Assembly: GCA_019751915.1 (NCBI GenBank)
Contig: JAIEMS010000017.1
Span: 1-53,059 of the forward strand
DNA from: Burkholderiaceae bacterium
Lineage (GTDB): Bacteria > Pseudomonadota > Gammaproteobacteria > Burkholderiales > Burkholderiaceae_C
DNA length: 53,059 bases
Direction: 5' to 3'
Shown here: piece after piece, positions 1,690 to 52,880 of the stretch
How the letters are laid out: each line of letters begins with the position of its first letter
Position numbering within the stretch: position 1 is the first letter of the stretch
The notes under the pieces: model-generated
What the model saw: the letters and a program-made list of their open reading frames with translations, nothing else
Database searches by the model: none
What the model was told of the DNA's origin: nothing
Position numbers and translations under genes: made by a program

Positions 1690-4371
1690 TCAAAGCACCA
1701 CGTTGACAAGGCGGCCCGGCACCACAATGACCTTCTTGGGCAAGGCACCAGCGGCTTGCTTAACAAAGGCTTCGCTGGCCAGCGCTACGCGCTCAATTTC
1801 GGCCTTATCGGCCTGTGCTGGCACCAAAATCGAGCCGCGCAGCTTGCCATTGACTTGCAGCATCAGTTCGATTTCGTCTTGCACCAGTGCCTGTGCATCG
1901 ACCTTGGGCCAAGGTGCATCGAGCAAATCGCCCAAGTGCGCGGCGTAGCCCAGCTCTGACCACAGGCTATGGGCAATGTGCGGCGTGGCCGGGTACAGGC
2001 AGCGCAGCAAAATGCCAAAGCCCTCAATCAGCGCCACTTGCGCCCCGGTGCAGTCGTGGGCCTTGAAGTCTTCCAGCGCGTTGATCATCTTCATTGCGCC
2101 CGAAACCACGGTGTTGTACTGCATGCGTTGGTAGTCGTAATCGACCTGCTTGAGCACGGTGTGAATCCCCAACCGCAGCGCCTTGGCTTCTTTGCCAAAC
2201 TCAACATCTTTGAGGCTGCTAGCCCCCGCTACGCTTGCATTGACTGCTTCTAAATCAATAGCAGAAATTTTGACCCCAAAATTCCAGACCCGGCGCAAAA
2301 AGCGGTAGCTGCCTTCGACGGCAGCATCGTTCCACTCCAGCGTGGCTTCGGGCGGGGCGGTGAACATGGTGTACAGACGCGCGGTGTCAGCGCCGTACTT
2401 TTCGATCAAATCTTGCGGATCGACACCGTTGTTTTTCGACTTGGACATGGTGCCCACGCCCTCGTAGTCGATGGCAGTACCAACGGGCAAAGCACCGACC
2501 GCATTTTTCAGCTTGGCACCGATGACCTTGCCCGCATCGTCTTGCACATGCTCAACGTCGTGCGGCCAGAAGTAATCTTTGCCCCCTTTTTCCGTGCGGC
2601 GCGAGTAAATGTGGTTCAGCACCATGCCTTGCGTGAGCAGCTTGGTAAAGGGTTCATCGACCTTGACCAGCCCCAAGTCGCGCATCACCTTCGTCCAAAA
2701 GCGTGCGTAGAGCAAATGCAAAATGGCGTGTTCAATGCCGCCGATGTATTGGTCCATCGGCATCCAGTAATCAGCGCCCGACCCCACCATGGCCGTGCTG
2801 TTTTTCGGGTCGCAATAGCGCATGAAGTACCACGAGCTATCGACAAAGGTGTCCATGGTGTCGGTTTCGCGCCGCGCGGCCTTGCCACAGACCGGGCAGG
2901 TCACACCAGCGTGGAAGCCTTCGTGCTTGTGCAACGGGTTGCCCGAGCCATCGGGGATGCAGTCTTGCGGCAGCACCACCGGCAAGTCTTTCTCGGGCAC
3001 GGGCACTGCGCCGTGTTCGTCGCAGTGGATGATCGGAATCGGCGTGCCCCAGTAGCGCTGGCGGCTCACGCCCCAGTCGCGCAAACGCCAAGTGGTTTTT
3101 TTCTCGCCAAGGCCTAATTTTTCAAGCGCATGGGCGACCGCATGGACGGCTTCTTTGTGGCCCAATCCGCTAAAGCTATCGGAATTGACCGTCACGCCCT
3201 GCTCTTTATCGGCGTACCAGTCTTGCCATTGCAGGTAATCGAAGCTTTTGCCATCGACCTGCACCACCTGCTTGATCTCTAAACCGTATTGCAACGCAAA
3301 AGCAAAGTCGCGCTCGTCGTGGGCGGGGACTCCCATCACAGCGCCGTCGCCGTACCCCATCAGCACGTAGTTGCCGACCCAAACCTCGACCGCCTCGCCG
3401 GTGATCGGGTGGTTCACGCACAGGCCCGTGGGCTGGCCTTTCTTTTCCTGCGTTGCCAGCTCGGCCTCGGTGGTGCCACCACGCTTGCATTCTTCAATAA
3501 AGGCGGCCAGCTTCGGATTCGATAGGGCAGCGTGCGTAGCCAAGGGGTGCTCAGGAGCCACGGCGCAGAAGGTCACGCCCATGATGGTGTCAGCCCGGGT
3601 GGTGAACACATACAGCTTGCCATCGCCAATCAGCGTGCCGTCGTCGTCCGCAATGCTGTGCGGAAAGGCAAAGCGCACGCCTTGGCTTTTGCCAATCCAG
3701 TTTTCTTGCATCAGCTTGACACGCTCGGGCCAGCCGGGCATTTTGTCGCCCGCGACGTTGCCCAGCAGTTCTTCGGCGTAGTCGGTGATCTTCAGGTAAT
3801 AACCGGGGATTTCGCGCTTTTCCACCGCAGCGCCAGTGCGCCAGCCCTTGCCGTCAATCACCTGTTCATTCGCCAGCACGGTTTGATCGACCGGGTCCCA
3901 ATTGACGACTTGGGTTTTGCGGTAGGCGATGCCTTTTTCTAGCATCTTCAAAAACAGCCACTGGTTCCACTTGTAATAGTCGGGGTCACAGGTGGCAACT
4001 TCGCGGCTCCAATCAATCGCCAAGCCCATCGCCTGCATCTGCTTTTTCATGTAGGCGATGTTGTCGTAAGTCCACTGGGCTGGGGGTACGCCGTTTTTCA
4101 GGGCAGCGTTCTCAGCGGGCAAGCCAAAGGCATCCCAACCCATGGGCATCAGCACGTTGTAGCCATTCATGCGCAACTGGCGTGCCAGCATATCGTTGAT
4201 GGTGTAGTTGCGCACATGGCCCATGTGCAGCTTGCCGCTGGGGTAGGGCAGCATCGAGCAGGCGTAGAACTTCTTTTTGTCAGCGTTTTCGGTGACGCGG
4301 TAGGCATCGCTGGCAGTCCAATGGGCCTGCGCTGCGCGCTCGATCTCGGTGTGTTGGTATTTGTCTTGCAT
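1690..4371 (-). CDS. leuS: Leucyl-tRNA synthetase
   Basis: Class I aminoacyl-tRNA synthetase charging tRNA-Leu. The HIGH signature appears as HMGH (in [15 protein letters not shown]) and the KMSKS signature as MSKSKNN; the connective editing domain includes [10 protein letters not shown]. The start is the ATG at 4371 ([11 protein letters not shown]), matching the conserved family N-terminus; an upstream in-frame ATG at 4404 would add 11 unconserved residues. Length about 893 is slightly long for the family. Residues about 702-720, just after the catalytic core at the anticodon-binding domain, are encoded by a copy of the dispersed repeat and look like an in-frame insertion. Confidence 0.97.
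2213..2266 (+). repeat. Dispersed repeat copy inside leuS
   Basis: Read on the plus strand this segment begins GGCTGCTAGCCC and ends CTTCTAAATCAATAGCAG, aligning by eye with the copies at 52815, 11022 and 22479. It is more AT-rich than the flanking leuS sequence, lies antisense to the gene, and keeps the reading frame, adding an Ala/Ser/Val-rich stretch ([17 protein letters not shown]). Confidence 0.65.
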
Positions 4372-4447
4372 GGGTGCCCGAAAAAAGGTGAGATGCAGCC
4401 GCAAACCGCTGCGTAGCCGGGGATTTTAGGTGCAGGCACTGGCGCGC

Positions 4448-4876
4448 TTACGGGCGCGGGGGCTGGACGGGTTCGGCAACAAAACCAATGCGGTGCAGTC
4501 CAGCTTGGTGCGCGACCCCCATGACCTCTACCACCCGGCCATAGGGCACAGCCGCATCGGCGCGCAATTGCAGTTCGGTGTCGGGGTGGGTGGCGGCAAT
4601 GGCTTGCAGGCGCTGGGCCAATGCGGGCTGCGACAACGGGACTTCATCGACCAAAACGCGGCTGTTTTTGTCTAAAACCACCGTGATCGAATGCGGCGCA
4701 GTGCCGGGTGTGGTGCCTGCGGTGCGGGGCAAATCAAGGCGGATGGAACTGGTCAGCAGCGGGGCCGTCAGGATAAAAATGACCACCAGCACCAGCATGA
4801 CATCAATCAGCGGTGTCATGTTGATCTCGCTCAGGGGCTGCGGCCCGGTGGTGCGTTCGAGTCTGCCAAAGGCCAT
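4448..4876 (-). CDS. exbD: Biopolymer transport protein ExbD/TolR family
   Basis: Inner-membrane subunit that with ExbB forms a proton-driven motor energising outer-membrane transporters (TonB) or Tol-Pal. It has the family layout: short cytoplasmic N-terminus ending EINMTPLIDVMLVLVVIF with the conserved membrane Asp, one membrane helix, then a periplasmic domain (about residues 50-142). Start chosen at 4876 (MAFGRLERT); the open frame continues upstream but overlaps exbB and has no family homology. Length 142 is normal. It follows exbB by 17 bases. Whether it serves TonB or Tol cannot be told here, since neither tonB nor tolA is nearby. Confidence 0.93.
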   Translation of the reverse strand: MAFGRLERTTGPQPLSEINMTPLIDVMLVLVVIFILTAPLLTSSIRLDLPRTAGTTPGTAPHSITVVLDKNSRVLVDEVPLSQPALAQRLQAIAATHPDTELQLRADAAVPYGRVVEVMGVAHQAGLHRIGFVAEPVQPPRP

Positions 4877-4893
4877 AGCGGGCGCTGAAAAAC

Positions 4894-5577
4894 TCAATCG
4901 GGCCGGGCCGCTGGTGCAGCCCCGAGCAGCAACTCGCGCAAATCGAGGGCAAAGCCCTCCAGATCGGCCTCGATGCGGCCAATCAAGCGGCCAAAAACGT
5001 TGTAGGCCAACACCGCAGGAATCGCCACCGCCAAGCCAGCGGCGGTCATGATGAGCGCCTCCCCAACCGGGCCAGCCACGCGGTCGATGCTGATTTGGCC
5101 CGCGCCCGCAATGGCCGCCAGTGCATGGTAAATGCCCCAAACGGTGCCCAACAGTCCGACAAAAGGCGCGGTAGAACCCACGGTCGCCAACAGCACTTGG
5201 CCCCATTGCAATCGGCCCAGCACCGTGTGCAAGGCATCGCGCAGCACCCGGGTCAGTTGCTGGCTGGCACTGCCCGCCTGTGCCAGCGTGGTGCCAGCGC
5301 CCGCCGAGGCTTGCAAAAATGCTACTGAATTTGTAGCTACAACCAAAGGCAGAACAAGGGCTTCGCGGTCAAAAGACTGTAAATTTTGGCTGGCGACCCC
5401 TATCGACGGTGCCTGCCAAAATGCCGCCGTGCAGCGCGCCACATCGGCACTGGCGCGGCGCAGCAGCAGCGCCTTCCAAACAATCACCACCCAGCTTGCC
5501 ACCGACATCAGCAGCAGCAGCGCCGCCGTAGCTTGCGCCACCACATCGCCTTGGCGCAAGCTGTGCAGTGCGTTCAT
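4894..5577 (-). CDS. exbB: MotA/TolQ/ExbB proton channel family protein
   Basis: Pore-forming partner of ExbD. Three hydrophobic segments are visible: residues about 15-35 (ALLLLMSVASWVVIVWKALLL), about 120-140 (LATVGSTAPFVGLLGTVWGIY, the strongly conserved family motif) and about 165-190 (ALIMTAAGLAVAIPAVLAYN). Length 227 is normal. It begins 17 bases after the dapB stop and is followed closely by exbD. Residues about 72-88 in the cytoplasmic loop (core VVATNSVAF) are encoded by a dispersed repeat copy, so the loop is probably longer or altered relative to relatives. Confidence 0.93.
   Translation of the reverse strand: MNALHSLRQGDVVAQATAALLLLMSVASWVVIVWKALLLRRASADVARCTAAFWQAPSIGVASQNLQSFDREALVLPLVVATNSVAFLQASAGAGTTLAQAGSASQQLTRVLRDALHTVLGRLQWGQVLLATVGSTAPFVGLLGTVWGIYHALAAIAGAGQISIDRVAGPVGEALIMTAAGLAVAIPAVLAYNVFGRLIGRIEADLEGFALDLRELLLGAAPAARPD
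5313..5363 (-). repeat. Dispersed repeat copy inside exbB
   Basis: Read on the minus strand: GCCCTTGTTCTGCC, then TTGTAGCTACAAATTCAGTAGCA, which fits the family pattern (AGCCCTTG, about 15 variable bases, TAGCTA, AT-rich centre, TAGCA). It is in frame with exbB and in the same sense. Confidence 0.65.
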
Positions 5578-5594
5578 GGCGCAGGCTGGCCCAA

Positions 5595-6437: not shown

Positions 6438-6496
6438 ATGCATTCCTGTAAATCAGATGCACCGCAGCAGCGGCACTGGCAAGAAAAGGGCCGTGC

Positions 6497-7063: not shown

Positions 7064-7137
7064 AGGGCTATGATGGATTCATTGTAGCGGCTAGCCCACA
7101 GGCCTAGGCACGCTGGATGGCACACAAAAAATCCGAA

Positions 7138-7563: not shown

Positions 7564-7569
7564 CACGCA

Positions 7570-8517: not shown

Positions 8518-8538
8518 GGCGCTCGGGGTGGTTGGGGG

Positions 8539-9006: not shown

Positions 9007-9063
9007 GGTATTGGCGCAGATTATGCACCGCCTTACACCTGCTCCGGTGCACCTTTGTGACGC

Positions 9064-9089
9064 ACAAAAAAGCCGCCGTGCGGCGGCTG
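9064..9089 (-). terminator. Rho-independent terminator of hpf
   Basis: A perfect 8-bp stem AGCCGCCG/CGGCGGCT with a two-base minimal loop (9071-9088) is followed on the minus strand by six T (TTTTTTG). It sits 20 bases after the hpf stop, separating hpf from ptsN. Confidence 0.88.
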
Positions 9090-9108
9090 TGACAGACACG
9101 ATGCTCTT

Positions 9109-9441
9109 TCAGGCATGGAGCCGACGCGGCGAATCAAAATGGTGCTCCTGCAATCGGGTCTTGTAGCGCACCACCTGCCGGTCAAGTTTGTCGATCAGCT
9201 CATCGACCGCAGCGTACAAATCTTGGTGTGAAGACTCGGCAAAAATATCGCTGCCCTTGACGTGAACATTGCACTCAGCGCGCTGGCGCTTTTCTTTCTC
9301 CTTTTGGTTTTCCACGGTCAATCGAACCTTAACGCCAACGACTTGGTCAAAGTGGCGCGTAATGCGGTCGAGCTTACTGGTGACATAACTGCGCAAAGCG
9401 GGTGTTACTTCGAGATGGTGACCGCTGATCGTCAAATTCAT
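9109..9441 (-). CDS. hpf: Ribosome hibernation promoting factor / RaiA family
   Basis: Binds the 30S decoding region of idle ribosomes in stationary phase. The start [20 protein letters not shown] and the later [25 protein letters not shown] region fit the family. At 110 residues this is the short form without the dimerising C-terminal domain. Start at 9441 is supported by GGGAGA upstream; the open frame extends 23 unconserved codons further. In many proteobacteria hpf follows rpoN; here no rpoN is adjacent and hpf has its own terminator, so it is apparently transcribed alone from the 300-base gap before purC. Confidence 0.92.
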
Positions 9442-10662: not shown

Positions 10663-10688
10663 GCGCTCTTCAAAGCATCTGCAAAAAC

Positions 10689-10711: not shown

Positions 10712-10742
10712 GCTGGCTGGCGCTGTGCGGCAAGTGGGCCGG

Positions 10743-11663
10743 TTAGCTCAATACCACCGAACTCAAGCGGCGACGGTACGTAGCAACCACCGGGTCTTGC
10801 GGTGGAATTTGGCCGTCTGCCACCTTGACCTTGGGCGGCTCAATGAGTTCCAGAATCGCCACACAGGTCTTGCGCGCGGTCTCGTCGTTCCACGTTTTGT
10901 CGCGCATCAAAATTTCAAGCAATTCGTCCATGGCATCTGTCCAGCGCTGCTGTGCCATCAGCCAGCGGGCGCGCGCAAAGCGGGCTTCAAAATCACGCTT
11001 GTTAGCGGTAATTTTTGCATCAAAATCGGCTTCAGCGCTTGCACCACTTGCATTAATAGCTACAAAATCAATAGCATCCATCCACGCCTTGAGCGCCGAC
11101 AAGCTGCGCGATGTACCGGCCTTGGCAATCACCGGGGCAAAGGCCACCTTGGCATCGTCTTCGTGGCCCAGTTGCAGCAGCAGCTTGACGTAATCAAAAC
11201 GCACCTCATCGTTGGCCGGATCAGCCGCCACAGCGTGCTGGAGCTTTTCGAGGGCGGTGTTGGTGTCGCCATCGGCCAGCGCTTCAAGGGCTTGCTCTTC
11301 TTCGGTTTGGGCCAGAGCTTCCTCGGCACTGGGCACATGTTTGTCCAAAAACTGGCGCACTTCGGCGGCAGGCAGCGCCCCGACGAAACCATCGACCGGC
11401 TGGCCTTGCTTGAACAGCACGCAAAACGGAATGCTGCGAACCCCAAACATTTGCGAAAGTTGTCCGGCAATTTGCGGCACTTTGTCGGCATCGAGTTTGC
11501 CGAGGCTAAAGCGCCCAGCGTATTCGGTTTCGACCTGTTCAAGCACCGGGCCAAGCTGCTTGCACGGGCCACACCATTCGGCCCAAATGTCCAACAACAC
11601 GGGCGCTTGCATCGAGGCGGCAATCACCTCGGTTTCAAAATTTTCTAGGGTGATTTCAGTCAT
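10743..11663 (-). CDS. cnoX: Thioredoxin-TPR co-chaperone, CnoX/YbbN family
   Basis: An N-terminal thioredoxin domain (about residues 1-110, [13 protein letters not shown] with Cys31 and Cys34) joined to TPR-like helices (about 115-300). The E. coli homologue is a holdase that hands clients to GroEL and protects them from over-oxidation. Here the CXXC pair is complete, whereas E. coli YbbN is known to lack the first Cys, so this one may be redox active. Length 306 is slightly above the family norm; residues about 196-214 come from a dispersed repeat. It is divergent from purE and convergent with purC. Confidence 0.9.
11022..11077 (+). repeat. Dispersed repeat copy inside cnoX
   Basis: The plus-strand sequence runs GGCTTCAGCGCTTG, a variable spacer, then TAGCTACAAAATCAATAGCA, a close match to the family. 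It is antisense to cnoX and in frame, encoding about [16 protein letters not shown] in the C-terminal helical region. Confidence 0.75.
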
Positions 11664-11737
11664 GGGGGGAAAACGTAAAATTGCGGGTTCACACTCTGCG
11701 GCAGGCGACCAACGTGGCGCACCGCTCTATACACACT

Positions 11738-12235: not shown

Positions 12236-13401
12236 AGCCATTTTCTGAACCCCTTTTGCCCGGTGCCACGCTGGGCGTACTGGGCGGCGGCCAGCTCGGG
12301 CGCATGTTTGTGCATGCGGCGCAGGCGATGGGCTACTTCACCGCCGTGCTCGATGCCGACCCGACCAGCCCCGCCGGGCTGGTCAGCCACCACCACATCC
12401 AAACCGGCTACGAAGACCCCGAGGGATTGGCCCAGCTCGCAGCATTGAGCGATGCCGTCACCACCGAGTTCGAGAATGTGCCCGCAGTCTCGCTGGCAGC
12501 GCTGGCCGGACAATGCCCGGTAGCCCCAGCCGCTCGCGCTGTGGCGGTGGCACAAGACCGCGCCCAAGAAAAAGCCCATTTTGTCGGTTGCGGCGTGCCC
12601 TGTGCGCCCTACGCCGTGATCGAAACACCCGCGCAACTGGCGGCGGTAGCGGCTGACCTGCTGCCGGGCATCCTGAAAACGGCCCGCATGGGCTACGACG
12701 GCAAGGGCCAAGTGCGCGTGCAAACGGCGGCTGAATTGGCCCAAGCGTGGCAGTCACTGGGCCAAGTGCCCTGTGTGCTCGAAAAAATGCTGGCGCTGGC
12801 GCTGGAGTGCTCGGTGATCGTGGCGCGTGGTGCTGATGGGGCCATCGTCCACTTGCCGGTGCAGCGCAACCTGCACCGCGCCGGAATTTTGGCTGTGACC
12901 GAGGTTTATGACTCCAATGTGCCTCTGGCCGTTGCACAGCAAGCTATTGATGCTGCAAAATCAATAGCAAACGAATTGAATTATGTCGGTGTTTTGTGCG
13001 TCGAATTTTTCGTGCTGCAAGACGGTAGTTTGGTCGTCAACGAGATCGCTCCACGCCCGCACAACAGCGGCCACTACAGCCAAAACGCCTGTGACGTGTC
13101 GCAGTTTGAGTTGCAAGTGCGCACCCTTGCCGGTTTGCCACTGACGCAGCCACGCCAGCACAGCGCCGCCGTGATGCTCAACCTGCTGGGCGATTTGTGG
13201 TTTGCCCACGGCGAGACGGCGCAAACGCCGCCTTGGGCTGCGGTGCTGGCCCTGCCCGGCACGCACCTGCATTTGTATGGCAAAACCGTAGCCAAGCACG
13301 GGCGCAAGATGGGCCACCTGAACATCACTGCGCCCAGCCCCGAAGCCGCCCGCGCCTGCGCCCTGCAAGCGGCAGCCCTGTTGGGCATTGCGCCTTTTTG
13401 A
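12232..13401 (+). CDS. purK: 5-(carboxyamino)imidazole ribonucleotide synthase
   Basis: ATP-grasp enzyme making N5-CAIR from AIR, bicarbonate and ATP, the substrate of the adjacent PurE. The N-terminus has [21 protein letters not shown]-grasp elements include [12 protein letters not shown] and [24 protein letters not shown]. Length 389 is normal. Residues about 230-247 ([19 protein letters not shown]) are encoded by DNA resembling a degenerate dispersed repeat, though this stretch also fits ordinary PurK sequence. It is followed 12 bases later by the Sua5 gene. Confidence 0.97.
12920..12970 (+). repeat. Possible degenerate dispersed repeat inside purK
   Basis: GCCTCTGGCCGTTGCACAGC then AAGCTATTGATGCTGCAAAATCAATAGCAA aligns partly with the family and is AT-rich against its surroundings. 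The protein segment is plausible native PurK, so this is the weakest copy. Confidence 0.4.
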
Positions 13402-13413: not shown

Positions 13414-14430
13414 ATGATTTTGGACGGCTCCCGGCCCGACTCCATTACCGCTGCGGCCCGCACCCTGCGCGCTGGCGGCTTGCTCGGCTTGCCCACCGAG
13501 ACCGTCTATGGCTTGGCTGCCAACGCCCAAAGCGACGGGGCCGTGGCACAAATTTTTGCCGCCAAAGGCCGCCCGAGTGACCACCCTTTGATCGTGCACG
13601 TGGCCGATGCCTCGGCCATTGCCCACTTTGCCAGCGCGGTACCGGCGTTTGCACAGGCGCTGGTCGATGCCTTCTGGCCCGGCCCCCTGACGTTGATTTT
13701 GCCGCGCCGCCCCGGTGTTGCCAGCGCTGCCACGGGCGGCCAAGACAGCGTAGGTCTGCGCTGCCCGGCCCACCCGGTAGCCCATGCCTTGCTGCGCGCC
13801 TGTGCTGCGCAGGGCGACGATGCCACACTCGGTGGCCCTGCGGTGTGGGGCGTGGCGGCCCCCAGCGCCAACCGCTTTGGCCGCGTCAGCCCGACCACAG
13901 CGCAGCATGTGCAAACCGAACTGGGCAACGACTTGCTGGTGCTGGACGGCGGGCCGTGTGCGGTCGGCATCGAATCGACCATCGTGGACTGCACGCGCGG
14001 CGTGCCGGTGCTGCTGCGCCCCGGTGCCATCAGCCGCGCCCAAATCACCGCTGTGATGGCCGCTTACGGTCTGCATTTGCTCTCAAAAGAGGAGCTTCCA
14101 GAGCACACCCCACGCGCATCAGGCACCCTTTTGACCCATTACGCACCCAACGCCAAGGTACGGCTCATGGATGCCAAAGCCCTGCAAGCGGGCCTTGAAG
14201 TGCTCGGCCCCAATGCAGCGCACTTGGCCGTTTATGCCCGCACACCGCTGCGCGCGGCCAGCGTGCTGGTGCGCCGCATGCCCGACGATGCCAGCGCCAC
14301 GGCGGCGGAGCTTTTTGCCACCCTGCGTGCTTTTGACGATGCCGGTGCCCAGCTCATTTGGATCGAAACCCCGCCCAACACCCCCGACTGGGAAGGCGTG
14401 CGCGACCGACTGCAACGCGCAGCGGCATGA
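13414..14430 (+). CDS. tsaC: L-threonylcarbamoyladenylate synthase (Sua5/YwlC/TsaC)
   Basis: Makes threonylcarbamoyl-AMP from threonine, bicarbonate and ATP for the t6A37 tRNA modification. The YrdC domain covers about residues 1-205 (LRAGGLLGLPTETVYGLAANA; PLIVHVAD; AAPSANRFGRVSPTTAQHV). The extra C-terminal Sua5 domain (about 215-338) marks it as the long Sua5/YwlC form, consistent with the 338-residue length. It follows purK closely and probably shares its transcript. Another t6A component, tsaB, is at 17.8 kb in this window. Confidence 0.94.
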   Translation: MILDGSRPDSITAAARTLRAGGLLGLPTETVYGLAANAQSDGAVAQIFAAKGRPSDHPLIVHVADASAIAHFASAVPAFAQALVDAFWPGPLTLILPRRPGVASAATGGQDSVGLRCPAHPVAHALLRACAAQGDDATLGGPAVWGVAAPSANRFGRVSPTTAQHVQTELGNDLLVLDGGPCAVGIESTIVDCTRGVPVLLRPGAISRAQITAVMAAYGLHLLSKEELPEHTPRASGTLLTHYAPNAKVRLMDAKALQAGLEVLGPNAAHLAVYARTPLRAASVLVRRMPDDASATAAELFATLRAFDDAGAQLIWIETPPNTPDWEGVRDRLQRAAA

Positions 14431-14483
14431 AGCGGCTCGTTAAACTCACCATCCACCCCCCTACACCTACCGGAGAACACACT

Positions 14484-15428
14484 ATGGCAGCAAATTGGAT
14501 GCGCCGCACCGCCTTGGTCGCCGCATGTGCGTCGGTCACGCTGCTGGCGGCCTGCGGTTCTAGCACCACCGCATCGGCCCTCAAGCCCGATCACCTGATT
14601 TCTTTTGGCGACAGCTACAGCTACGTTGGCAACCAACGCTACAGCGTCAACAACGCCAGCATCAACAACTGGACGCTGCAACTGCTCGACCATTACAAGA
14701 GCGCAGGCAACGCCAGCGGCGGCTTGGTCAGCTACGCCGAAGGCAATGTGCGCCTGAGCGCCCACCCCGATGCAGCCGGGGTAGCCACCAGCACCACCGT
14801 CAGCGAACAAATTGACCGCTTCCTCGCCAAGCAAACGCCCGCTGCCAACGACATCATTTTGATCAACGGCGGCATCAGCGACCTGCTGGTGGGCATGGCC
14901 GCAGTGCGCGCTGGCACCCTGACACCGGCGCAGTTTGTGACCGATGCGCACCAAAACGGCCAAAAATTGGCAGAACTGGTACGCAAGCTGGTAACGGCAG
15001 GCGCACCCCATGTCGTGGTTGCAGGCACCTACAACCTCGGCAAAACGCCTTGGGCCAAAACCATCGGCCAAGAAACCCTGTTGAGCGATGCCAGCAGCCG
15101 TTTTAACGAAGGCCTGCTGGTAGCAATCAACGACTTGGGCAAGAACGTGCTCTATCTGGATGCGGCGTATTACGTCAATCTATACACCTCCACGCCGTCG
15201 TCGTTCTCGTTTGACAACGCCACCACGCCCATTTGCACCTCTGTGGATGCGGGCAACGGCATTGGCGTTGGCACTGGGCAAATTAACTCGGCGCTGTGCA
15301 CACAAAACACCCTGCTGGCCGGTGCCGCAGTCGATAAATACGTTTTTGCCGACTCGGTTTACATGACACCCTCAGCCCACCGCCAACTGGGCACTTACGC
15401 CTACGACAAACTGCGCGTGCGTTGGTAA
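14484..15428 (+). CDS. SGNH/GDSL-hydrolase-like lipoprotein, catalytic motifs altered
   Basis: An N-terminal signal peptide with lipobox LLAAC (Cys about 24) predicts a membrane-anchored lipoprotein. Block I is present as LISFGDSYSYVG with the nucleophile Ser about 44, giving a GDSY variant. Block III, usually GxND, reads GGISD, and block V, usually DxxHPT, reads DSVYMTPSAH: by my alignment the Asn and catalytic His are replaced by Ser and Tyr. The start at 14484 has CGGAG eight bases upstream; an ATG at 14427 overlapping the tsaC stop would put 19 residues before the signal peptide. Family is fairly sure; enzymatic activity is doubtful. Confidence 0.75.
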   Translation: MAANWMRRTALVAACASVTLLAACGSSTTASALKPDHLISFGDSYSYVGNQRYSVNNASINNWTLQLLDHYKSAGNASGGLVSYAEGNVRLSAHPDAAGVATSTTVSEQIDRFLAKQTPAANDIILINGGISDLLVGMAAVRAGTLTPAQFVTDAHQNGQKLAELVRKLVTAGAPHVVVAGTYNLGKTPWAKTIGQETLLSDASSRFNEGLLVAINDLGKNVLYLDAAYYVNLYTSTPSSFSFDNATTPICTSVDAGNGIGVGTGQINSALCTQNTLLAGAAVDKYVFADSVYMTPSAHRQLGTYAYDKLRVRW

Positions 15429-15443
15429 GGCGCTGGTAAATCT

Positions 15444-15968
15444 CTAGTTGGGCTGGGGACGGCCCAACTCGGGGGCCAGCCTTGCAGAGCGCAAAATAAC
15501 CAGTGCCCGCGCAAGAAATACCCCGCTAAAAAACCCATAGCAAAAACCCACCCAACCGACAAAAGCTATTTCACTGGCAATGGGGAGTTGCCGAGCCAAG
15601 GTGATACCGACAGCGTATTTCGTAAAAAAGATAGCCATCATCAAGGCCATGGGGAGCCAACTTCCCGGAACGAAAAACGACTGGGTTTCAGTAGAAAAGG
15701 TCACGCCCTTTGGCGCAGGGCGCTTTGCGATCACTCCCACAGCGATGGCAACACCCAGAATCCAAAAAACAAGGCCGATTGGATTGGCACCAAAAGCCGA
15801 AAACACACCGTAAAAAGACAGCACGACCATCGCCGCAGGGAGTAGGGAAACCTTGCTGTAACCCAGCGTTCTATTCTTGCTCTGGACATAGCCCAGCGCC
15901 AGCAGGACGAAAAATAGCAAAAACACCCAAGGCGGTGTGCGGGTCAAAATTTGGATCAACAAGGGCAA
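15444..15968 (-). CDS. Small integral membrane protein, function unknown (DUF6622-like)
   Basis: A 174-residue protein with about five hydrophobic segments: residues about 10-28 (TPPWVFLLFFVLLALGYV), 42-60, 64-82, about 103-122 and about 132-155. The opening LIQILTRTPPWVF resembles a family I recall as DUF6622, which I cannot verify. There is no catalytic motif. Base composition is noticeably less GC-rich than its neighbours, so it may be a later arrival. It is convergent with the GDSL-like gene, with 15 bases between stops. Confidence 0.7.
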   Translation of the reverse strand: MPLLIQILTRTPPWVFLLFFVLLALGYVQSKNRTLGYSKVSLLPAAMVVLSFYGVFSAFGANPIGLVFWILGVAIAVGVIAKRPAPKGVTFSTETQSFFVPGSWLPMALMMAIFFTKYAVGITLARQLPIASEIAFVGWVGFCYGFFSGVFLARALVILRSARLAPELGRPQPN

Positions 15969-16019
15969 CTCCTCGACTCAATTTGTAAGATGAGCTTATG
16001 GGGCGGCAGGTATTGCGGT

Positions 16020-16277
16020 TTATTTTTTATACCGCAGCTTCATCGCCAAAATCGCCCCGGCCAGCGCCAGCGTGACGGTGTTGGCCGCCACAATCGGCCA
16101 CGCCTTCAGCAACACGCCATAAACCAACCACAGCGCAACCCCCACGGTAAATACGCTGTACATCCCCAAAGAGATGCCCGAGACATCGCGGGTACGAAAC
16201 GTGTGCAGCGCCTGCGGCACAAAACTGCACGTGGTCAGGCTGGCGGCCAGATAACCGACCCAATCAGAAATTTGCAT
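16020..16277 (-). CDS. SemiSWEET-type sugar transporter
   Basis: An 85-residue, three-helix protein of the MtN3/PQ-loop superfamily, which works as a dimer to pass small sugars across the membrane. The SemiSWEET pattern is clear: GYLAASLTTCSFVPQALHTFRTRDVSGISLGMYSVF contains the PQ-loop Pro-Gln and the RDVSGIS signature, followed by LWLVYGVLLKAWPIVAANTV. Start at 16277 (MQISDWVG) fits the family; the frame is open far upstream inside dacB but in the wrong frame for that gene. It begins 11 bases after the dacB stop, so the two are probably co-transcribed. The substrate is unknown. Confidence 0.88.
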   Translation of the reverse strand: MQISDWVGYLAASLTTCSFVPQALHTFRTRDVSGISLGMYSVFTVGVALWLVYGVLLKAWPIVAANTVTLALAGAILAMKLRYKK

Positions 16278-16288
16278 ATTCACCTCGC

Positions 16289-17758
16289 CTATGGAGAGCG
16301 CAGCGGTTGGTCGCGGGCGGCCCAGTCGATCAGGGCATCGAATGCCGGGCGCGCCGCTGCTGCTGCGTTGGGGTGGTTGAGCATAGCCACGAGCACGTAG
16401 CGCTGGCCGCTGGCGGCGTGGACGTAGCCCGCCACCGCAGCAACATCGCGCAAACTGCCGGTTTTCAGATGGGCGCTGCCCAGTGCCCGGCTCTGGCTGC
16501 GCCGCAGCGTGCCATCGACCCCGGCAATCGGCAACGACGACAACAACTCCGGCATCACCGGCGAGACCCAAGCGGCCTGCAACATCCGCCCCAAGGCCTG
16601 CGCGCTGATGCGGGCCTCACGGCTCAGGCCTGCGCCGTTGTCGGTCACGGGCAAATCTGCATCGCCAAAACGGCTACGCCACCATTGGCGCAGCACCTCG
16701 CGCGCACCCTCGGGCGTAGCAATGCCATTTTTTTGTCCAGCCAACGTCAAAAAAAGCTGCTGCGCCATCACGTTGTTGCTGTATTTGTTGATATCGCGCA
16801 CCACCTCGGCCAGTGGTGGCGAACTGGCGCTAAAGGCAGGCTTAAGCGCCGCTGGCACCTTGCCCTCGCGCACGGTGCCTGTGAGTTTTCCGCCCCCTTC
16901 GCGCCACATCCCTTCGATGGCACGGGCAGCATAAGCACCCGGATCGGCGTAAGCCACAGCCCAATGGCGCTCGCCACAACTGGCCGGGTAAACGCCCAAA
17001 AAACCCAACCGCGCCGGATCAGCCAGCCCTGCGCGCAGGCCCGCACGCCAATCGCCACAAGCCGCCCCCGGTGCGGCCAATGGCACGCTGGCCTGCATGT
17101 GCACACCGGCCAGCGGCGGGTCAAACTGCACCCGCGCCACCCCGGCGGCAACATCGGGCGTAAAACCCATTGCCACGGCTTTAAAGTTCAGCAGCAACGC
17201 ATCGGGGGCGACGTTGTAGGGGCGCAGCGGCTCGCCATCAAACTGCGCCGGGTCGTGGGCAGGCAAGGCAAAAGCCGAGCGGTCGAGCACGATATCGCCA
17301 ACGATGGTTTGCACCCCCTGCCCCTGCAAGCGCCGCAACAGCAACCACAGGCGCTCCAACACCAGCTTGGGGTCGCCTTGCCCCCGGATATACACATTGC
17401 CGTGCAAACTACCGCCCTGCACCACACCATCGACATACACCGGCGTGTTCCAGACATACGCTGGCCCGAGCAGATCTAACCCGGCAAAGGTCGTCACCAA
17501 CTTCATCACCGAAGCCGGATTCATGGGCACCTGTGCGCGGTGCGACAGCCGCGCCGGTGCCGTGCCTTGGGCATCGACCACCAGCACCGACAGCGCCTCG
17601 CGTGGCACCTGCGCGCGCAGCAGCGCGGCCTCGACCTCGGGTGGCAATGGGCCAGAGCGGTCTGCCTGCGCTGGCGCAGCACCTGCTACAACAGCAAGGC
17701 TCAACAACAAGACACCGCACACCCACCGACGACTGAACAAAAAAGACAAAGACAACAT
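16289..17758 (-). CDS. dacB: D-alanyl-D-alanine carboxypeptidase/endopeptidase (PBP4, peptidase S13)
   Basis: Periplasmic penicillin-binding protein that trims or cleaves peptidoglycan cross-links. The signal peptide spans about residues 1-32, ending AGAAPAQA. Catalytic motifs are complete: SVMK (Ser83-Lys86), SNN (in NKYSNNVMAQ) and KTG (in AHLKTGSLRDVA). Length 489 fits PBP4. Start at 17758 (MLSLSFLFSRR) gives a proper signal peptide; the frame extends about 150 codons upstream through the divergent tsaB region and is not family-like. It is divergent from tsaB, with 79 bases between starts. Confidence 0.94.
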   Translation of the reverse strand: MLSLSFLFSRRWVCGVLLLSLAVVAGAAPAQADRSGPLPPEVEAALLRAQVPREALSVLVVDAQGTAPARLSHRAQVPMNPASVMKLVTTFAGLDLLGPAYVWNTPVYVDGVVQGGSLHGNVYIRGQGDPKLVLERLWLLLRRLQGQGVQTIVGDIVLDRSAFALPAHDPAQFDGEPLRPYNVAPDALLLNFKAVAMGFTPDVAAGVARVQFDPPLAGVHMQASVPLAAPGAACGDWRAGLRAGLADPARLGFLGVYPASCGERHWAVAYADPGAYAARAIEGMWREGGGKLTGTVREGKVPAALKPAFSASSPPLAEVVRDINKYSNNVMAQQLFLTLAGQKNGIATPEGAREVLRQWWRSRFGDADLPVTDNGAGLSREARISAQALGRMLQAAWVSPVMPELLSSLPIAGVDGTLRRSQSRALGSAHLKTGSLRDVAAVAGYVHAASGQRYVLVAMLNHPNAAAAARPAFDALIDWAARDQPLRSP

Positions 17759-22465: not shown

Positions 22466-22478
22466 CGCTTCTTTCAAG

Positions 22479-22537
22479 GCAAATTGGCCTCTAGCCCTTG
22501 CCTACCAAGGGCCAATAGCTATTGATTAGATAGCAAT
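22479..22537 (+). repeat. Dispersed repeat copy between corA and the IOR gene
   Basis: It reads AATTGGCCTCTAGCCCTTG, then CAATAGCTATTGATTAGATAGCAA, a near-complete intergenic copy beginning about 14 bases after the corA stop. Confidence 0.82.
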
Positions 22538-36296: not shown

Positions 36297-36310
36297 GGGT
36301 TCAATACGCT

Positions 36311-36368
36311 TCTTTTTTGATAGCTACTCATACTTACTGCACAAGGGCTACAGACCAATTTGATTCAT
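36311..36368 (-). repeat. Dispersed repeat copy between amgK and rsmE
   Basis: On the minus strand it reads ATGAATCAAATTGGTCTGTAG, CCCTTGTGCAGTAAG, then GTAGCTATCAAAAAAGAAG. It fills nearly all of the gap between the amgK stop and the rsmE start and so lies in the rsmE leader. Confidence 0.82.
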
Positions 36369-43607: not shown

Positions 43608-44303
43608 ATGTCCAGCCAGTTTATTGACCTGCAAGCCGCCGACGGCCACCGATTTGCCACTTGGGTCGCCGAACCCGGCGCAGCCCCGCGCGGCGCTGTG
43701 GTCGTGTTGCAGGAGATTTTTGGCGTTAACAGCCACATCCGCGCCGTCACCGAGCGCTTTGCTGCGCGTGGTTATTTGGCCGTGGCCCCTTCGACCTTCT
43801 CGCGGGTGCAGCCGGGCGTTGAACTGGGCTACAGCGCCAAAGACATGGAAGAAGGTTTTGCCATCAAACTGCGGGTCGATCAGCTGCCCGGCACCGGCGT
43901 GCTGCAAGACATCCAAGCCGCCATTGACTACGCCAGCACCCACAGCGGTGATTTGCCAGTCGCCATCGTGGGCTTTTGCTGGGGTGGTCTGCTGGCGTGG
44001 CACGCTGCCTGCCAGTTGCATGGCCTAGCGGCGGCAGTTTGCTACTACGGCGGCGGCATGACCAGCAACGAAGAAATCGCCCGCCAACCGCTCTGCCCGG
44101 TCATTGCCCACTTTGGCAACCGCGACCCGTGGATTGCCTTGGACAGCGTGCAAGCCTTTGACCGCGCCCACCCCGATGTGACCGTGCATGTGTACGACGC
44201 GGACCACGGCTTTAATTGCGATCAGCGCGGCTCCTACGACGCGGCATCGGCCATGAGCGCGCGCGACCGCACTTTGGCATTTTTTGACCAACATTTGAAG
44301 TAA
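43608..44303 (+). CDS. Dienelactone hydrolase family protein
   Basis: An alpha/beta hydrolase of 231 residues. The Cys nucleophile is in VGFCWGG (Cys about 124), the acid in NRDPWI and the His in YDADHGFN. Family members hydrolyse dienelactone in chloroaromatic degradation, but no catabolic genes are nearby, so the substrate is open. Start at 43608 has CAGGAG ten bases upstream. It ends at a repeat shared with the convergent hemB. Confidence 0.9.
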   Translation: MSSQFIDLQAADGHRFATWVAEPGAAPRGAVVVLQEIFGVNSHIRAVTERFAARGYLAVAPSTFSRVQPGVELGYSAKDMEEGFAIKLRVDQLPGTGVLQDIQAAIDYASTHSGDLPVAIVGFCWGGLLAWHAACQLHGLAAAVCYYGGGMTSNEEIARQPLCPVIAHFGNRDPWIALDSVQAFDRAHPDVTVHVYDADHGFNCDQRGSYDAASAMSARDRTLAFFDQHLK

Positions 44304-45366
<1,063 letters not shown>

Positions 45367-45486
45367 TCAAGCCCCGCACACAGCCAGGCGCTTGGCCCCC
45401 ACTGCCGATGCCGTTTTCCTGACTTCGCGCAGACAGTGTGCGCTGAATGCCACCGGCCAGCGCCTTCTGGCCCTTAAACTGCGACC

Positions 45487-45915: not shown

Positions 45916-45969
45916 GTACGCGGGCAGAGGCAGCGTCCATCACAGCGTCTGATTTGGCCTGTTTTTTTC

Positions 45970-47444: not shown

Positions 47445-47474
47445 TTTTCTGGTTTTTCGAGACTTTTAACGTCT

Positions 47475-47530
47475 TTTTGGCTACCAGCCCTTTTCCACTA
47501 AGGATTGGTAGCTATCAAATGGATAGCAAA
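47475..47530 (+). repeat. Dispersed repeat copy before the alpha/beta hydrolase
   Basis: It reads TTTTTGGCTACCAGCCCTTT, TCCACTAAGGAT, then TGGTAGCTATCAAATGGATAGCAAA. Its right end abuts the GTG start of the next gene. Confidence 0.82.
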
Positions 47531-47531
47531 C

Positions 47532-48173: not shown

Positions 48174-48227
48174 TCCAACACCGCGCGGGTTGTCCGCTTT
48201 GCATTTTTTTGTCAGACCGTTTTACCC

Positions 48228-49415: not shown

Positions 49416-49451
49416 CCAGCAGCGGCTGTAGGCTGTATATGGGGTCTTTGC

Positions 49452-49480
49452 TTGCCTTAGATGCCTGAGGCGGGTACATT
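49452..49480 (+). promoter_or_regulatory. Probable str operon promoter
   Basis: TTGCCT and TACATT separated by exactly 17 bases, 65 bases upstream of the rpsL ATG. A small hairpin TTCGGA-AAT-TCCGAA follows in the leader at 49490-49504. Confidence 0.55.
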
Positions 49481-49544
49481 AGAAGGCTTTTCGGAAATTC
49501 CGAAGGGTTTCACGTTTTCGTTTTACGTTTAGGGACGATAGTTC

Positions 49545-49922
49545 ATGCCAACCATTAACCAGCTCGTGCGTCACGGGCGTGAGGTCGAAAAGACCAAATC
49601 CAAAAGCCCGGCGATGGAAAACTCGCCACAACGCCGTGGCGTGTGCACCCGCGTGTACACCACAACACCTAAGAAGCCAAACTCCGCTCTGCGTAAAGTT
49701 GCTAAGGTTCGCCTGACCAACGGCTTTGAAGTCATTTCCTACATCGGCGGCGAAGGCCACAACCTGCAAGAGCACAGCGTTGTGCTGGTGCGCGGTGGTC
49801 GCGTCAAGGATTTGCCAGGTGTGCGTTACCACATCGTGCGCGGTTCGCTCGACTTGCAAGGCGTGAAAGACCGCAAGCAATCGCGCTCCAAGTACGGCGC
49901 TAAGAAGCCTAAGGCCAAATAA
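49545..49922 (+). CDS. rpsL: 30S ribosomal protein S12
   Basis: Decoding-centre protein. The sequence is near the family consensus ([59 protein letters not shown]). The residues known to give streptomycin resistance when changed, Lys in PKKPNS and Lys in RVKDLP, are wild type. Length 125 is normal. First gene of the str operon; rpoBC, which often precede it, are not adjacent here. Confidence 0.98.
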
Positions 49923-50090
49923 GCCTGGCTCTTTTGCCACAACCAACAGGTGCTGTTTCCCGCGTGGCGCGGTGATTCGGCGTAGTGACCCCAAGCGCAA
50001 ATTGTCTGCGTGGGTCGAGTAAGTGGGAGTCCACAATGGCTCTCGCGGTGTCTGAAAAGATGCCAACTGAAGCAAATATAGAGGTGCAAA
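49923..50090 (+). promoter_or_regulatory. rpsL-rpsG intercistronic leader
   Basis: 168 bases, longer than usual for ribosomal protein operons. In E. coli the corresponding gap carries the S7 autoregulatory site; a like role is inference. CCGCGTGGCGCGG and GTGGGAGTCCAC can fold locally. A small ORF begins at 50036 (see separate entry). Confidence 0.5.
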
Positions 50091-50122
50091 ATGCCACGTC
50101 GTCGCGAAGTCCCCAAACGTGA
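50036..50122 (+). CDS. Candidate 28-codon leader ORF overlapping the rpsG start
   Basis: ATG preceded by GGGAG at a six-base spacing opens a frame ([19 protein letters not shown] and onward) that ends at TGA 50120-50122, 32 bases inside rpsG in another frame. No family is recognised. It could couple translation or be chance. Confidence 0.3.
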
Positions 50123-50564
50123 AATCCTGCCCGATCCTAAGTTCGGCAACGTCGAGCTGTCCAAATTCATGAACGTGATCATGGAAGGCGGCAAAAAGGC
50201 GGTTGCAGAGCGCATCATTTATGGCGCTCTTGACTTGATCGCAAAGAAGAACCCCGACAAAGACCCATTGGAAGCCTTCGTTGTTGCCATCAACAACGTC
50301 AAGCCCATGGTCGAAGTCAAGTCCCGCCGTGTCGGCGGTGCTAACTACCAAGTGCCCGTTGAAGTGCGCCCTGTCCGTCGTCTGGCTTTGTCCATGCGCT
50401 GGATCAAGGAAGCTGCTCGCAAGCGCGGCGAAAAATCGATGGCCCAACGTCTGGCCAACGAAATGCTGGAAGCCACTGAAGGCCGTGGCGGTGCTATGAA
50501 AAAACGTGACGAAGTTCACCGCATGGCCGAAGCCAACAAGGCATTCAGCCACTTCCGCTTCTAA
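50091..50564 (+). CDS. rpsG: 30S ribosomal protein S7
   Basis: Primary 16S rRNA-binding protein of the 30S head and, in E. coli, the str operon's own translational repressor. [39 protein letters not shown] and [19 protein letters not shown] are near consensus. Length 157 is normal. GAGGTG lies seven bases upstream of the ATG. Confidence 0.98.
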
Positions 50565-50592
50565 GCCAAAGGCTTACTTCCGGTGTTCCACT

Positions 50593-50622
50593 AAGGCCGC
50601 TGGCATTTTTGCCCGCGGCCTT
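50593..50622 (+). promoter_or_regulatory. Stem-loop between rpsG and fusA
   Basis: Perfect 8-bp arms AAGGCCGC/GCGGCCTT with an inner GGC/GCC and a loop of T residues, 28 bases after rpsG. Only TTT occurs a few bases downstream, so it is at most a partial terminator or an mRNA-processing/stability element. Confidence 0.45.
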
Positions 50623-50711
50623 CGGTGGGTTTAAATCACCAAAAACATTGGGCTGCGCCGCCAAGGTGTGCCGCCTGTCAATCGAACACAACGACCCATC
50701 AAGGACTCACC

Positions 50712-52814
50712 ATGGCTCGCAAGACCCCCATCGAGCGCTACCGCAATATCGGTATCTCGGCCCACATCGACGCTGGCAAGACAACTACCACCGAGCGTAT
50801 TCTTTTCTACACCGGCGTGAACCACAAAATTGGTGAAGTTCACGACGGCGCGGCCACCATGGACTGGATGGAGCAAGAGCAAGAGCGTGGCATCACGATC
50901 ACCTCTGCGGCCACCACCTGCTTCTGGAAGGGTATGGAAAATTCCTTCCCCGAGCACCGCATCAACATCATCGACACCCCCGGCCACGTTGACTTCACGA
51001 TTGAAGTCGAGCGCTCCATGCGCGTGCTCGACGGCGCTTGCATGGTGTACTGCGCTGTGGGCGGCGTGCAGCCCCAGTCTGAAACTGTGTGGCGTCAGGC
51101 CAACAAATACAAAGTGCCTCGTCTGGCCTTCGTGAACAAGATGGACCGTACTGGTGCCAACTTCTTCAAAGTCGTCGAGCAAATGAAGTTGCGCCTGAAG
51201 GCCAACCCCATTCCAATCGTCATCCCAATCGGTGCTGAAGAAAACTTCAAGGGCGTGGTCGATCTGCGCAAAATGAAGGCCATCTTCTGGGATGAAGCTT
51301 CGCAAGGTATGAAGTTCACCTACGAAGAAATTCCTGCTGACTTGGTCGAAGTGGCCAACGAATGGCGCGAAAAGATGGTTGAAGCCGCCGCTGAAGCCTC
51401 TGAAGAGCTGATGAACAAGTACCTCGAAGAAGGTGACTTGACGGAAGCTGAAATCACCTTGGGTCTGCGTACCCGCGCTATCGCCTGCGAAATCCAGCCG
51501 ATGCTGTGCGGTACTGCGTTCAAGAACAAGGGCGTGCAGCGCATGCTCGACGCGATCATCGAACTGATGCCTTCGCCAGTGGACATTCCACCCGTGGGCG
51601 GCATGGACGAAGACGAAGCCCCCATCTCGCGCACAGCTGACGACAGCGAAAAGTTCTCTGCACTGGCGTTCAAGCTGATGACCGACCCGTTTGTCGGTCA
51701 ATTGACTTTCGTGCGCGTTTATTCGGGCGTTCTGACCAAGGGCGACACCGTTTACAACCCCGTCAAAGGCAAGAAAGAGCGTATTGGCCGTATCGTGCAA
51801 ATGCACGCCAACGAACGCCTTGAAGTCGATGAAATTCGCGCTGGCGACATCGCCGCTTGCGTGGGTCTGAAAGACGTGACCACTGGCGAAACACTGTGCG
51901 ACGTGGCCAGCCCCATCTTGCTCGAACGCATGGTCTTCCCTGAGCCTGTGATCGCACAGGCGGTGGAACCCAAGACCAAGGCCGACCAAGAAAAAATGGG
52001 TATTGCCCTGCAACGTCTGGCCGCTGAAGATCCATCGTTCCGCGTCAAAACCGACGAAGAATCGGGCCAAACCATCATCGCCGGTATGGGCGAGTTGCAC
52101 TTGGAAATTATTGTTGACCGGATGAAGCGCGAATTCGGCGTGGAAGCCAACGTCGGCAAGCCCCAAGTGGCCTACCGCGAAACCATCCGCAAAACCGTCG
52201 AAGAAGCCGAAGGCAAATTCGTGCGTCAATCCGGTGGTAAGGGCCAATACGGTCACGTTGTGCTCAAAATCGAACCCAATGAACCCGGCAAGGGCATTGA
52301 ATTCGTCGACGCCATCAAGGGCGGTGTGGTGCCACGCGAGTACATCCCAGCGGTCGAAAAGGGTATCAACGAAGCCGTCACGCAAGGCGTGTTGGCTGGC
52401 TACCCCGTGGTCGATGTCAAGGTCACACTGCACTTTGGTTCGTACCACGATGTGGACTCGAACGAACTGGCCTTCAAGATGGCCGCTATCTTCGGCTTCA
52501 AGGAAGGCTGCCGCAAGGCCAACCCCGTCATCCTTGAACCCATGATGGCCGTGGAAGTCGAAACCCCTGAAGACTACGCCGGTAACGTGATGGGCGACTT
52601 GTCCTCACGCCGTGGCATGGTGCAAGGCATGGACGACATCCCGGGTGGCGGCAAAGCCATTCGCGCTGAAGTTCCATTGTCCGAAATGTTTGGCTACTCG
52701 ACCACACTGCGCTCGGCCACACAAGGCCGCGCTACGTACTCGATGGAATTCAAGCACTACAGCGAAGCCCCACGCAACGTGTCGGAAGCCATTATGGCTG
52801 CCCGCTCGAAGTAA
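50712..52814 (+). CDS. fusA: Elongation factor G
   Basis: GTPase driving ribosomal translocation. G-domain motifs: [13 protein letters not shown] (P-loop), [12 protein letters not shown] (switch), DTPGHVDFT and NKMDRTG. Domains II-V are complete to the conserved end [16 protein letters not shown]. Length 700 is normal. Start at 50712 ([12 protein letters not shown]) with AAGGA ten bases upstream; the in-frame ATG at 50625 is not family-like. Confidence 0.98.
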
Positions 52815-52880
52815 TTTTGAATCAAATTGGCTGTTAGCCCTTGTATAGCAAGCGCTAGCAGCTATTTATTTCATAGCAAA
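52815..52880 (+). repeat. Dispersed repeat copy between fusA and tuf
   Basis: The fullest copy: TTTTGAATCAAATTGGCTGT, TAGCCCTTGTATAGCAAGCG, CTAGCAGCTATTTATTTCAT, AGCA. It begins directly after the fusA stop. Confidence 0.85.

Follow-up and report, generated by a model that had tools for sequence, protein, structure and literature searches.

What maintains a sequence of ∼58 bp that recurs nine times, between genes and inside them, in a single stretch of bacterial DNA? The stretch in question, called the window below, comprises positions 1 to 53,059 (forward strand) of contig JAIEMS010000017.1 from assembly GCA_019751915.1 of a Burkholderiaceae bacterium; the family label Comamonadaceae, used throughout, follows the named relatives. 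An initial annotation of the window had described nine related segments, had read them as copies of a non-autonomous mobile element and had suggested that one half of the sequence could form a hairpin. Our analysis points elsewhere, to a long double-stranded DNA recognition motif that is kept by drive or selection and is most likely a DNA-uptake signal, a reading to which we give about an even chance of being right. We infer that the motif has a cellular reader, through which it is maintained.

The nine segments were all present, on the strands given by the initial annotation and within ∼8 bp of its positions. A weight matrix of 33 copies, among them the five intergenic ones from the window but not the four in-gene ones, gave them between 25 and 80 bits (Table 1), whereas 20 first-order Markov randomizations of the window scored 3.1 bits at most. 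Together with 28 more copies from the window's own genome (G000) they gave an alignment of 37 copies, in which the ∼58-bp unit was almost free of indels, with a fixed length and a mean column identity of ∼70%. The consensus derived from 97 intergenic copies is approximately atnAAAtngGcCtcTAGCgCTTgtcnagcAAGCgcnagtAGCTATnAatTtaatAGCaa, with extra Ts preferred at positions −5 and −4; its blocks are AAAT, AGCGCTT, a GC-rich block at 32–35, AGCTAT, an AT-rich part and ATAGCA. The nine window copies contain 36–49% G+C, and the information content of the motif is 46–55 bits, a figure somewhat inflated because the sites had been picked by score.

The genome-wide scan of G000 that had been proposed as a check returned at least 150 matches, all with E ≤3e-7 among the matches listed (the model's own copies included). 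Sampled stretches of this genome held 68 sites above 10 bits in 435,931 bases, or one per 6.4 kb, which corresponds to ∼425 copies in the genome if the sample is typical. The second motif-rich genome sampled (G147) had 72 such sites in 400 kb and the genus-mate G002 had one in 400 kb, whereas an order-2 Markov control, made as one version of each sampled stretch, had no site even above 5 bits. The possibility that matches would be no more frequent than in shuffled sequence thus fell away, and the two motif-rich genomes display the strong genome-wide over-representation expected of an uptake signal. Matrix scores, alignment and scans together support a single dispersed sequence family with a high copy number, between and within genes, in Comamonadaceae, as the initial annotation had claimed.

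The copies inside genes are the most informative ones, since a 58-bp insertion would leave ∼19 residues in the protein. Of the 43 in-gene sites in G000 and G147, 18 had a motif-free orthologue; for 14 of these a gapless one was available, the other four showed small gaps only, and a gap of ≥12 residues over the site was found at none of the 18. The remaining 25 sites had no usable motif-free orthologue and are uninformative. Four genes were counted in both genomes, so that the 18 testable sites represent ∼14 independent loci. Within the window, the purK site was ungapped in 29 out of 29 relatives and in 79 out of 80 named loci, and no gap appeared there in alignment with 4izo and 4e4t, the best two of the solved PurK chains. 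The leuS site was gapless in the 15 relatives aligned, motif-free ones among them, as was the cnoX site against the aligned relatives that lack the motif. The tolQ site lies in a variable stretch of the protein where many relatives have small gaps; across 20 aligned genomes (its own included), two others had the motif there, G006 with 40 bits and G013, weakly, with 7, and in G000 and G006 a half-built motif sits on the conserved native residues LVLPLV. In-gene copies are therefore not supported as insertions at the testable sites. Sites that arise in place, are conserved and occupy permissive positions, as those of an uptake signal should, were found for the in-gene sites only.

These copies are also held at the level of DNA. 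Synonymous codon resampling at the four in-gene window sites reached the observed score in 0 out of 3000 trials at each of them, and we therefore rejected a coincidence of protein sequence at these four sites. At the purK site, scores were bimodal over 104 distinct sequences, with 46 above 10 bits, 55 below 0 and three between. AT-ending codons made up 63.5% at this site in the 46 motif-bearing sequences, whereas none of the 321 other purK windows exceeded 25.8%, and one codon was ATA in 78% of the 46, where the 55 motif-free sequences favored ATT or ATC. Grouping by site score makes this test of AT-ending codons partly circular. Since the 46 sequences had been chosen by score, we regrouped the 80 named loci by the presence of other copies elsewhere in the locus: a share of AT-ending codons (AT3) ≥0.4 at the purK site was found in 23 of the 24 loci with other copies and in 10 of the 56 without. 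With score-based grouping, other copies were present in 22 of the 27 loci with a purK site versus one of the 50 without (three intermediate loci dropped). The purK pattern is thus held across genera through otherwise uncommon codons. Among the records that bear the site are some titled Giesbergeria, Acidovorax, Simplicispira, Rhodoferax and Polaromonas. Several Comamonas have a weak site only, and it is missing elsewhere, for example from Delftia, Limnohabitans, Variovorax and also Acidovorax sp. Root219.

Two separate observations concern the same gene. The purK genes of G004 and G016 carry an in-frame, G+C-rich insertion of ∼29 residues, situated at about residue 143 of the window protein and clear of the motif, which by its G+C content and in-gene position recalls the BRE repeat as described in the available part of its report (PMC3110155), a comparison by description only. 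A record titled Hymenobacter frigidus, with a purK 65% identical to that of the window, is listed among the Polaromonas matches and is possibly a mislabelled or contaminating contig.

How widely is the motif distributed? The motif model matched 31 of 60 relatives at E ≤1e-4 and none of 24 genomes that belong to the order but to other families. In the window's genus, 22 of 25 mates had at least 91 matches each, and the other three had 0 (G002), 4 (G005) and 2 (G008). Family-wide, a match was found in 83 of 220 genomes, which represent 52 of 115 genera, and 60 of the 220 had 12 or more matches. Presence or near-absence of the motif is thus genome-wide and goes by lineage. Its sequence may vary by lineage as well: the block that could pair in a hairpin reads CAAG in 3 of 48 sites from Polaromonas/Rhodoferax-side loci versus 25 of 62 from the Acidovorax side, and the GC of the block is kept in 45 of the 48 and 58 of the 62, in two locus sets that were hand-picked and contain non-independent orthologous sites. 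These differences suggest genus-level dialects of a DNA motif.

Placement was assessed with a simple codon-usage gene caller built for the analysis, counting gaps from ≥30 bp. In G000, 47 of the 68 sites were intergenic, 20 lay in genes and one at an edge, with intergenic gaps amounting to 8.8% of the sample; G147 had 49 intergenic and 23 in-gene sites. The median distance from a site to the neighboring 3′ end was 15 bp in G000 and −1 in G147. Gaps between convergent genes held a site more often than those between divergent genes in G000 (12 of 31 versus 4 of 52, P = 0.001), with a weaker trend in G147 (11 of 32 versus 8 of 44, P = 0.12). In-gene sites leaned downstream (30 of 43 in the downstream half of the gene, P = 0.014), which bears only a loose likeness to the bias of Pasteurellaceae uptake sequences towards gene termini that is described in the accessible part of PMC2346458. 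Two stop-free frames of the consensus accounted for 16 of the 20 in-gene sites in G000, but for only 11 of the 23 in G147. Orientation relative to co-directional genes showed no bias (14 same and 17 opposite in G000, 12 and 13 in G147). Among the best 149 matches in G147, spacing was random and no clear strand polarity by replichore (origin to terminus, ori–ter) was found. Pairs of motifs in opposite orientation, ∼50 bp apart, were noticed at G000:C12:42787-42949 and 9029-9198.

If the motif is an uptake signal, its putative reader would be the type IV pilus DNA-uptake machinery, and it would be analogous to the DNA uptake sequence (DUS) of Neisseria and the uptake signal sequence (USS) of Haemophilus. 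DNA of kin that bears the motif would be taken up preferentially, and recombination would copy the motif in place, by molecular drive with or without selection. Sites would then gather where they are tolerated, at gene 3′ ends, in short intergenic gaps and in variable protein segments, and a lineage that lost its uptake preference would see its sites decay together. Published work on the family is compatible with such a scheme. According to the part of PMC4212676 available to us, Acidovorax temperans, A. facilis and Verminephrobacter eiseniae are transformable; in V. eiseniae, type IV pilus mutations abolished uptake and an excess of salmon DNA reduced transformation only about tenfold; and A. 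temperans took up DNA of its own species only, while A. defluvii and A. delafieldii gave no transformants. In that part of the text, its authors infer selective binding or uptake and discuss DUS, and name no sequence. DUS and USS are described, in the parts of PMC7811141 and PMC2397512 at hand, as dense, possibly drive-maintained and located in permissive positions of the core genome. It is the combination of reported transformability and selective uptake in Comamonadaceae with these descriptions that led us to rate an uptake signal as the likeliest reading, ahead of a chromosomal binding site. In the open literature that we searched, no uptake sequence is named for Comamonadaceae and no reader is named for the motif.

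Several results weigh against an uptake signal. On our comparison with its description, the motif would be about twice as long as USS and several-fold sparser, and its 46–55 bits far exceed what marking ∼400 sites needs, which suits copying as well as recognition. A family-wide signal alone would also leave the same-species-only uptake and the untransformable Acidovorax species unexplained. We found no motif receptor among ComEC, PilQ and GspH/FimT. ComEC does not discriminate, being matched in 220 out of 220 family genomes (215 above the cut-off), and the motif-poor G002 and G005 retain open ComEC frames of 865 and 825 codons; nor do PilQ (28 of 28) and GspH/FimT (27 of 28, the miss being the motif-rich G015). 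G086 has a ComEC match at E 6.5e-4 only, yet 22 motif matches, and G028, which has lost the purK site and whose motif sites look degraded, nevertheless has 86 weaker matches. At the purK site, plain codon identity in motif-bearing genomes is not extreme (110 of 321 windows were as high), the share of AT-ending codons being the measure that proved informative. Orthologous intergenic gaps without the motif are often 45–80 bp shorter, with a flank identity of ∼65–90% that is too diverged to decide the matter. Runs of the same strand in G147 are slightly over-clustered (4 of 200 permutations as high); the best two-breakpoint strand split there was likewise reached by 4 of 200 permutations, and there may be a weak regional strand bias. 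Finally, seven viral contigs match the motif by pattern search. As an observation on G028, its ComEC lies in three pieces in different frames (G028:C1:1835975-1837847) and scores below the family cut-off; since G086 does not line up, a link between broken ComEC and a degraded motif in G028 is only suggestive.

Any DNA-binding reader would fit sites that are positioned in place, maintained, found on both strands and lost lineage-wide, so that a chromosomal protein-binding site unrelated to uptake and selected in place (for a nucleoid organizer, a replication or segregation factor, or a recombination hot-spot) is a serious contender, if an unlikely one. Such a landmark sits poorly with the random spacing and the lack of a clear ori–ter strand pattern in G147; 46–55 bits would be unusually long for it, copies in integron cassettes (see below) are unexpected for a housekeeping function, and near-total loss in genus-mates (in G002, 0 model matches and one matrix site per 400 kb) suggests dispensability. 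Less probable still is the non-autonomous mobile element of the initial annotation, that is, an ancient and decaying insertion resembling a miniature inverted-repeat transposable element (MITE), a repetitive extragenic palindrome (REP) or a Rickettsia palindromic element (RPE) and moved by some transposase. A unit of constant length, rich in information and with a mean column identity of 70%, is what one would expect of it, as are the shorter motif-free intergenic gaps; for intergenic copies an insertion origin is possible, and the shorter gaps would equally fit a mere need for room. Insertion relative to empty orthologous sites, the hallmark of MITE- or RPE-like elements, was nevertheless seen at none of the 18 testable in-gene sites, and the purK pattern was kept across genera while third positions elsewhere drifted, which is not decay. 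A REP-associated tyrosine transposase (RAYT)-like helper had been expected in all genomes with the repeat. We rejected this candidate, as the presence of Y1_Tnp does not follow motif abundance: motif-rich G003 has no match (E 0.001), while motif-poor G002, G026, G030 and G032 each have at least one.

The near-palindromic half pointed out by the initial annotation is visible in the consensus, but its pairing hardly exceeds what column composition gives, and the hairpin RNA or DNA proposed from it was not borne out. An RNA element or intrinsic terminator at gene ends would be in keeping with a foldable consensus, with the crowding at 3′ ends and between convergent genes, and with USS, since pairs of these in close overlap are mostly located at the ends of genes, where they serve as terminators, according to the available text of PMC7811141. 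We consider it very improbable all the same. Covariation was not found in 37 copies. Among the 97 intergenic copies, stem 1 was paired in 61.1% versus 59.8% after shuffling (50 of 2000 shuffles as high) and stem 2 showed no excess pairing; nor did the 39 in-gene copies (stem 1, 51.1% versus 51.9% shuffled), and an Rfam gathering scan of the window gave 0 matches. Apart from the slight excess in intergenic stem 1, neither compensatory stem changes nor orientation with transcription was seen, and the even orientation relative to co-directional genes led us to reject a terminator. The would-be pairing block differs between genera, being mostly replaced in the Polaromonas/Rhodoferax-side loci, and the purK copy lies in sense orientation within its gene. 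The least credible of the explanations that we considered is homogenization by gene conversion among repeats, with no reader at all. This could yield in-place copies with high information, but the half-built tolQ motif keeps its native LVLPLV, which a converted tract would overwrite, and loss from whole lineages would need a separate cause.

Parts of the motif have been published before. The available part of a study of word pairs (PMC5217627) lists GCTTAT(N)5AAGCG from Acidovorax ebreus as a potential novel motif with 114 copies, of which 107 are intergenic and 44 of these convergent, lists ATAGCT(N)22CAAAAG for Polaromonas naphthalenivorans, and gives Rhodoferax ferrireducens as the genome with the most significant pairs (140). 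All 13 matches of the first pair in 400 kb of G147 fell on motif sites, whereas the G000 and G002 samples had one match each, off motif sites. The 13 out of 13 indicate that the A. ebreus pair is a fragment of the motif, already in print and left unexplained. The second pair, matched at one site in the G000 samples and at none in six Polaromonas loci, is likely part of the same motif. As far as the available part of that study goes, it differs from the present analysis in giving only the pairs, without the full motif, its in-gene maintenance, a family-wide picture or a function.

The motif also occurs on plasmids and in integrons. Its consensus matched 1799 plasmid records, mostly enterobacterial, and one Diaphorobacter plasmid also carries it. 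The great majority of matching records (1746 of 1799) fell in the 90–95% identity band, to which the 92.3% of a Salmonella island with dfrA12 and aadA2 also belongs; judging from this band alone, one motif-bearing cassette may be very common in plasmids. On plasmid R751, a DUF1010 reading frame situated between dfrB3 and qacE contains a copy (52 bits); in the Salmonella island, which is filed with phage records and was the single match among 50,697 of these (blastn, E 0.01), a copy (47 bits) is found within the body of the cassette that separates dfrA12 from aadA2. An uptake signal would be expected to be depleted in recently acquired DNA, and on this point the picture is mixed: phage records are almost devoid of the motif, but the seven viral contigs, the Diaphorobacter plasmid and the integron cassettes carry it. 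We take the R751 and dfrA12–aadA2 cassettes to be those named gcuD and gcuF; the records annotate DUF1010 or nothing.

Full-length matches to DUF1010 (PF06231) were clustered in several family genomes. The G147 cluster (C1:1575001-1595000) follows an integron integrase (TIGR02249, 465.8 bits; gene at 1196-2239 of that stretch, minus strand) and contains 13 motif sites above 20 bits, all on one strand within ∼13 kb, several of them in 320-bp units bounded by attC-like sites; tandem units of this length occupy 14050-15627, and an IS5-family transposase (15802-16896, minus strand) stands at the far end. The search for motif sites and attC-like cores also took in the remaining DUF1010 clusters. 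We rejected the idea that the motif is itself an attC site, because in the G147 array and in the two class 1 cassettes it lies in the cassette body, and separate attC-like sites with RYYYAAC/GTTRRRY cores bound the cassettes. None of five translated open reading frames (ORFs) from motif sites matched DUF1010, even with E allowed to reach 10; full-length DUF1010 thus has the appearance of a cassette family and not of translated dispersed copies. Short matches to the first 20–40 positions of DUF1010 coincided with motif sites in all three G147 cases compared, which implies that some annotated DUF1010 proteins may be spurious. PF06231 itself appears to represent the frame encoded by integron cassettes that bear the motif.

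The position of the motif in class 1 cassettes beside drug-resistance cassettes suggests that these cassettes originated in Comamonadaceae, and a motif that aids uptake would explain their spread. This leads to a broader proposal, which we put forward tentatively and hold somewhat doubtful: a third, independently evolved uptake-signal system, in which the competence machinery of roughly half of the genera sampled (52 of 115) would read a ∼58-bp, multi-block, dialect-forming mark of 'self', with motif-bearing cassettes as hitch-hikers. So long a mark would reshape codons and residues at in-gene sites. The R751 DUF1010 cassette, the dfrA12–aadA2 cassette and the chromosomal arrays would have spread by bearing the mark, which would tag them as Comamonadaceae-derived.

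The individual copies in the window are collected in Table 1. The copy that overlaps both of its convergent neighbors is flanked by one ORF ending at 44303 and by a porphobilinogen synthase ORF (44344-45351, minus strand). A weak tenth site, within an L-threonylcarbamoyladenylate synthase-like gene, reached ≥10 bits in 7 of 98 orthologous rows.

Table 1. Copies of the motif in the window, with scores from the 33-copy weight matrix
Location	Position	Strand	Score (bits)	Remark
leuS	2206-2264	+	34	gene on −, copy antisense
TolQ/ExbB-like gene	5319-5377	−	25	gene on −
CnoX/YbbN-like thioredoxin-TPR gene	11019-11077	+	53	gene on −
purK	12912-12970	+	30	sense, native codons
L-threonylcarbamoyladenylate synthase-like gene (13414-14430)	14077-14135	−	14	weak tenth site
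Intergenic	22478-22536	+	66	∼12 bp past stop codon (22465)
Intergenic	36306-36364	−	56	
Between convergent genes	44300-44358	+	67	overlaps both 3′ ends
Intergenic	47471-47529	+	59	
Intergenic	52821-52879	+	80	best in window, directly past stop codon (52814)

If the motif has an uptake role, the selective DNA uptake that Acidovorax and Verminephrobacter are reported to show would gain a sequence that can be tested, and this would be the third bacterial group with self-marked genomes. A motif of such unusual length, which has been gained and lost naturally and perhaps has dialects, would lend itself to studying how uptake signals originate. It also hints at where two integron cassettes, both of unknown function, came from. 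Even without a role in uptake, a 58-bp DNA pattern that is maintained inside leuS, purK and cnoX requires a reader.

Among known systems, REP sequences and their RAYTs resemble the motif as dispersed short palindrome-like repeats, often at gene ends; unlike them, it shows no dependence on RAYT and its in-gene copies sit in place. The BRE repeat likewise occurs in Comamonadaceae and other bacteria, partly inside genes, but by the description in the available part of PMC3110155 it is set apart by its length of ∼90 bp and its 69% G+C in Bordetella, compared with 36–49% for the motif. The DUF1010, gcuD and gcuF cassettes carry the motif, whereas the dispersed sites themselves are not cassettes. 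From DUS of the Neisseriaceae and USS of the Pasteurellaceae, the motif differs in its length (∼58 bp versus 10–12 for DUS or 31 for USS), in belonging to another family, in being known here from sequence alone and, with respect to USS, in its density, one site per 6.4 kb compared with about one per kb for the 31-bp USS in the accessible text of PMC7811141. It resembles both in having hundreds or more of dispersed sites on both strands, genic and intergenic, in permissive places; in combining a core with AT-rich parts; in being lineage-specific, in hosts with type IV pilus genes; in its inverted halves near gene ends; and possibly in forming dialects.

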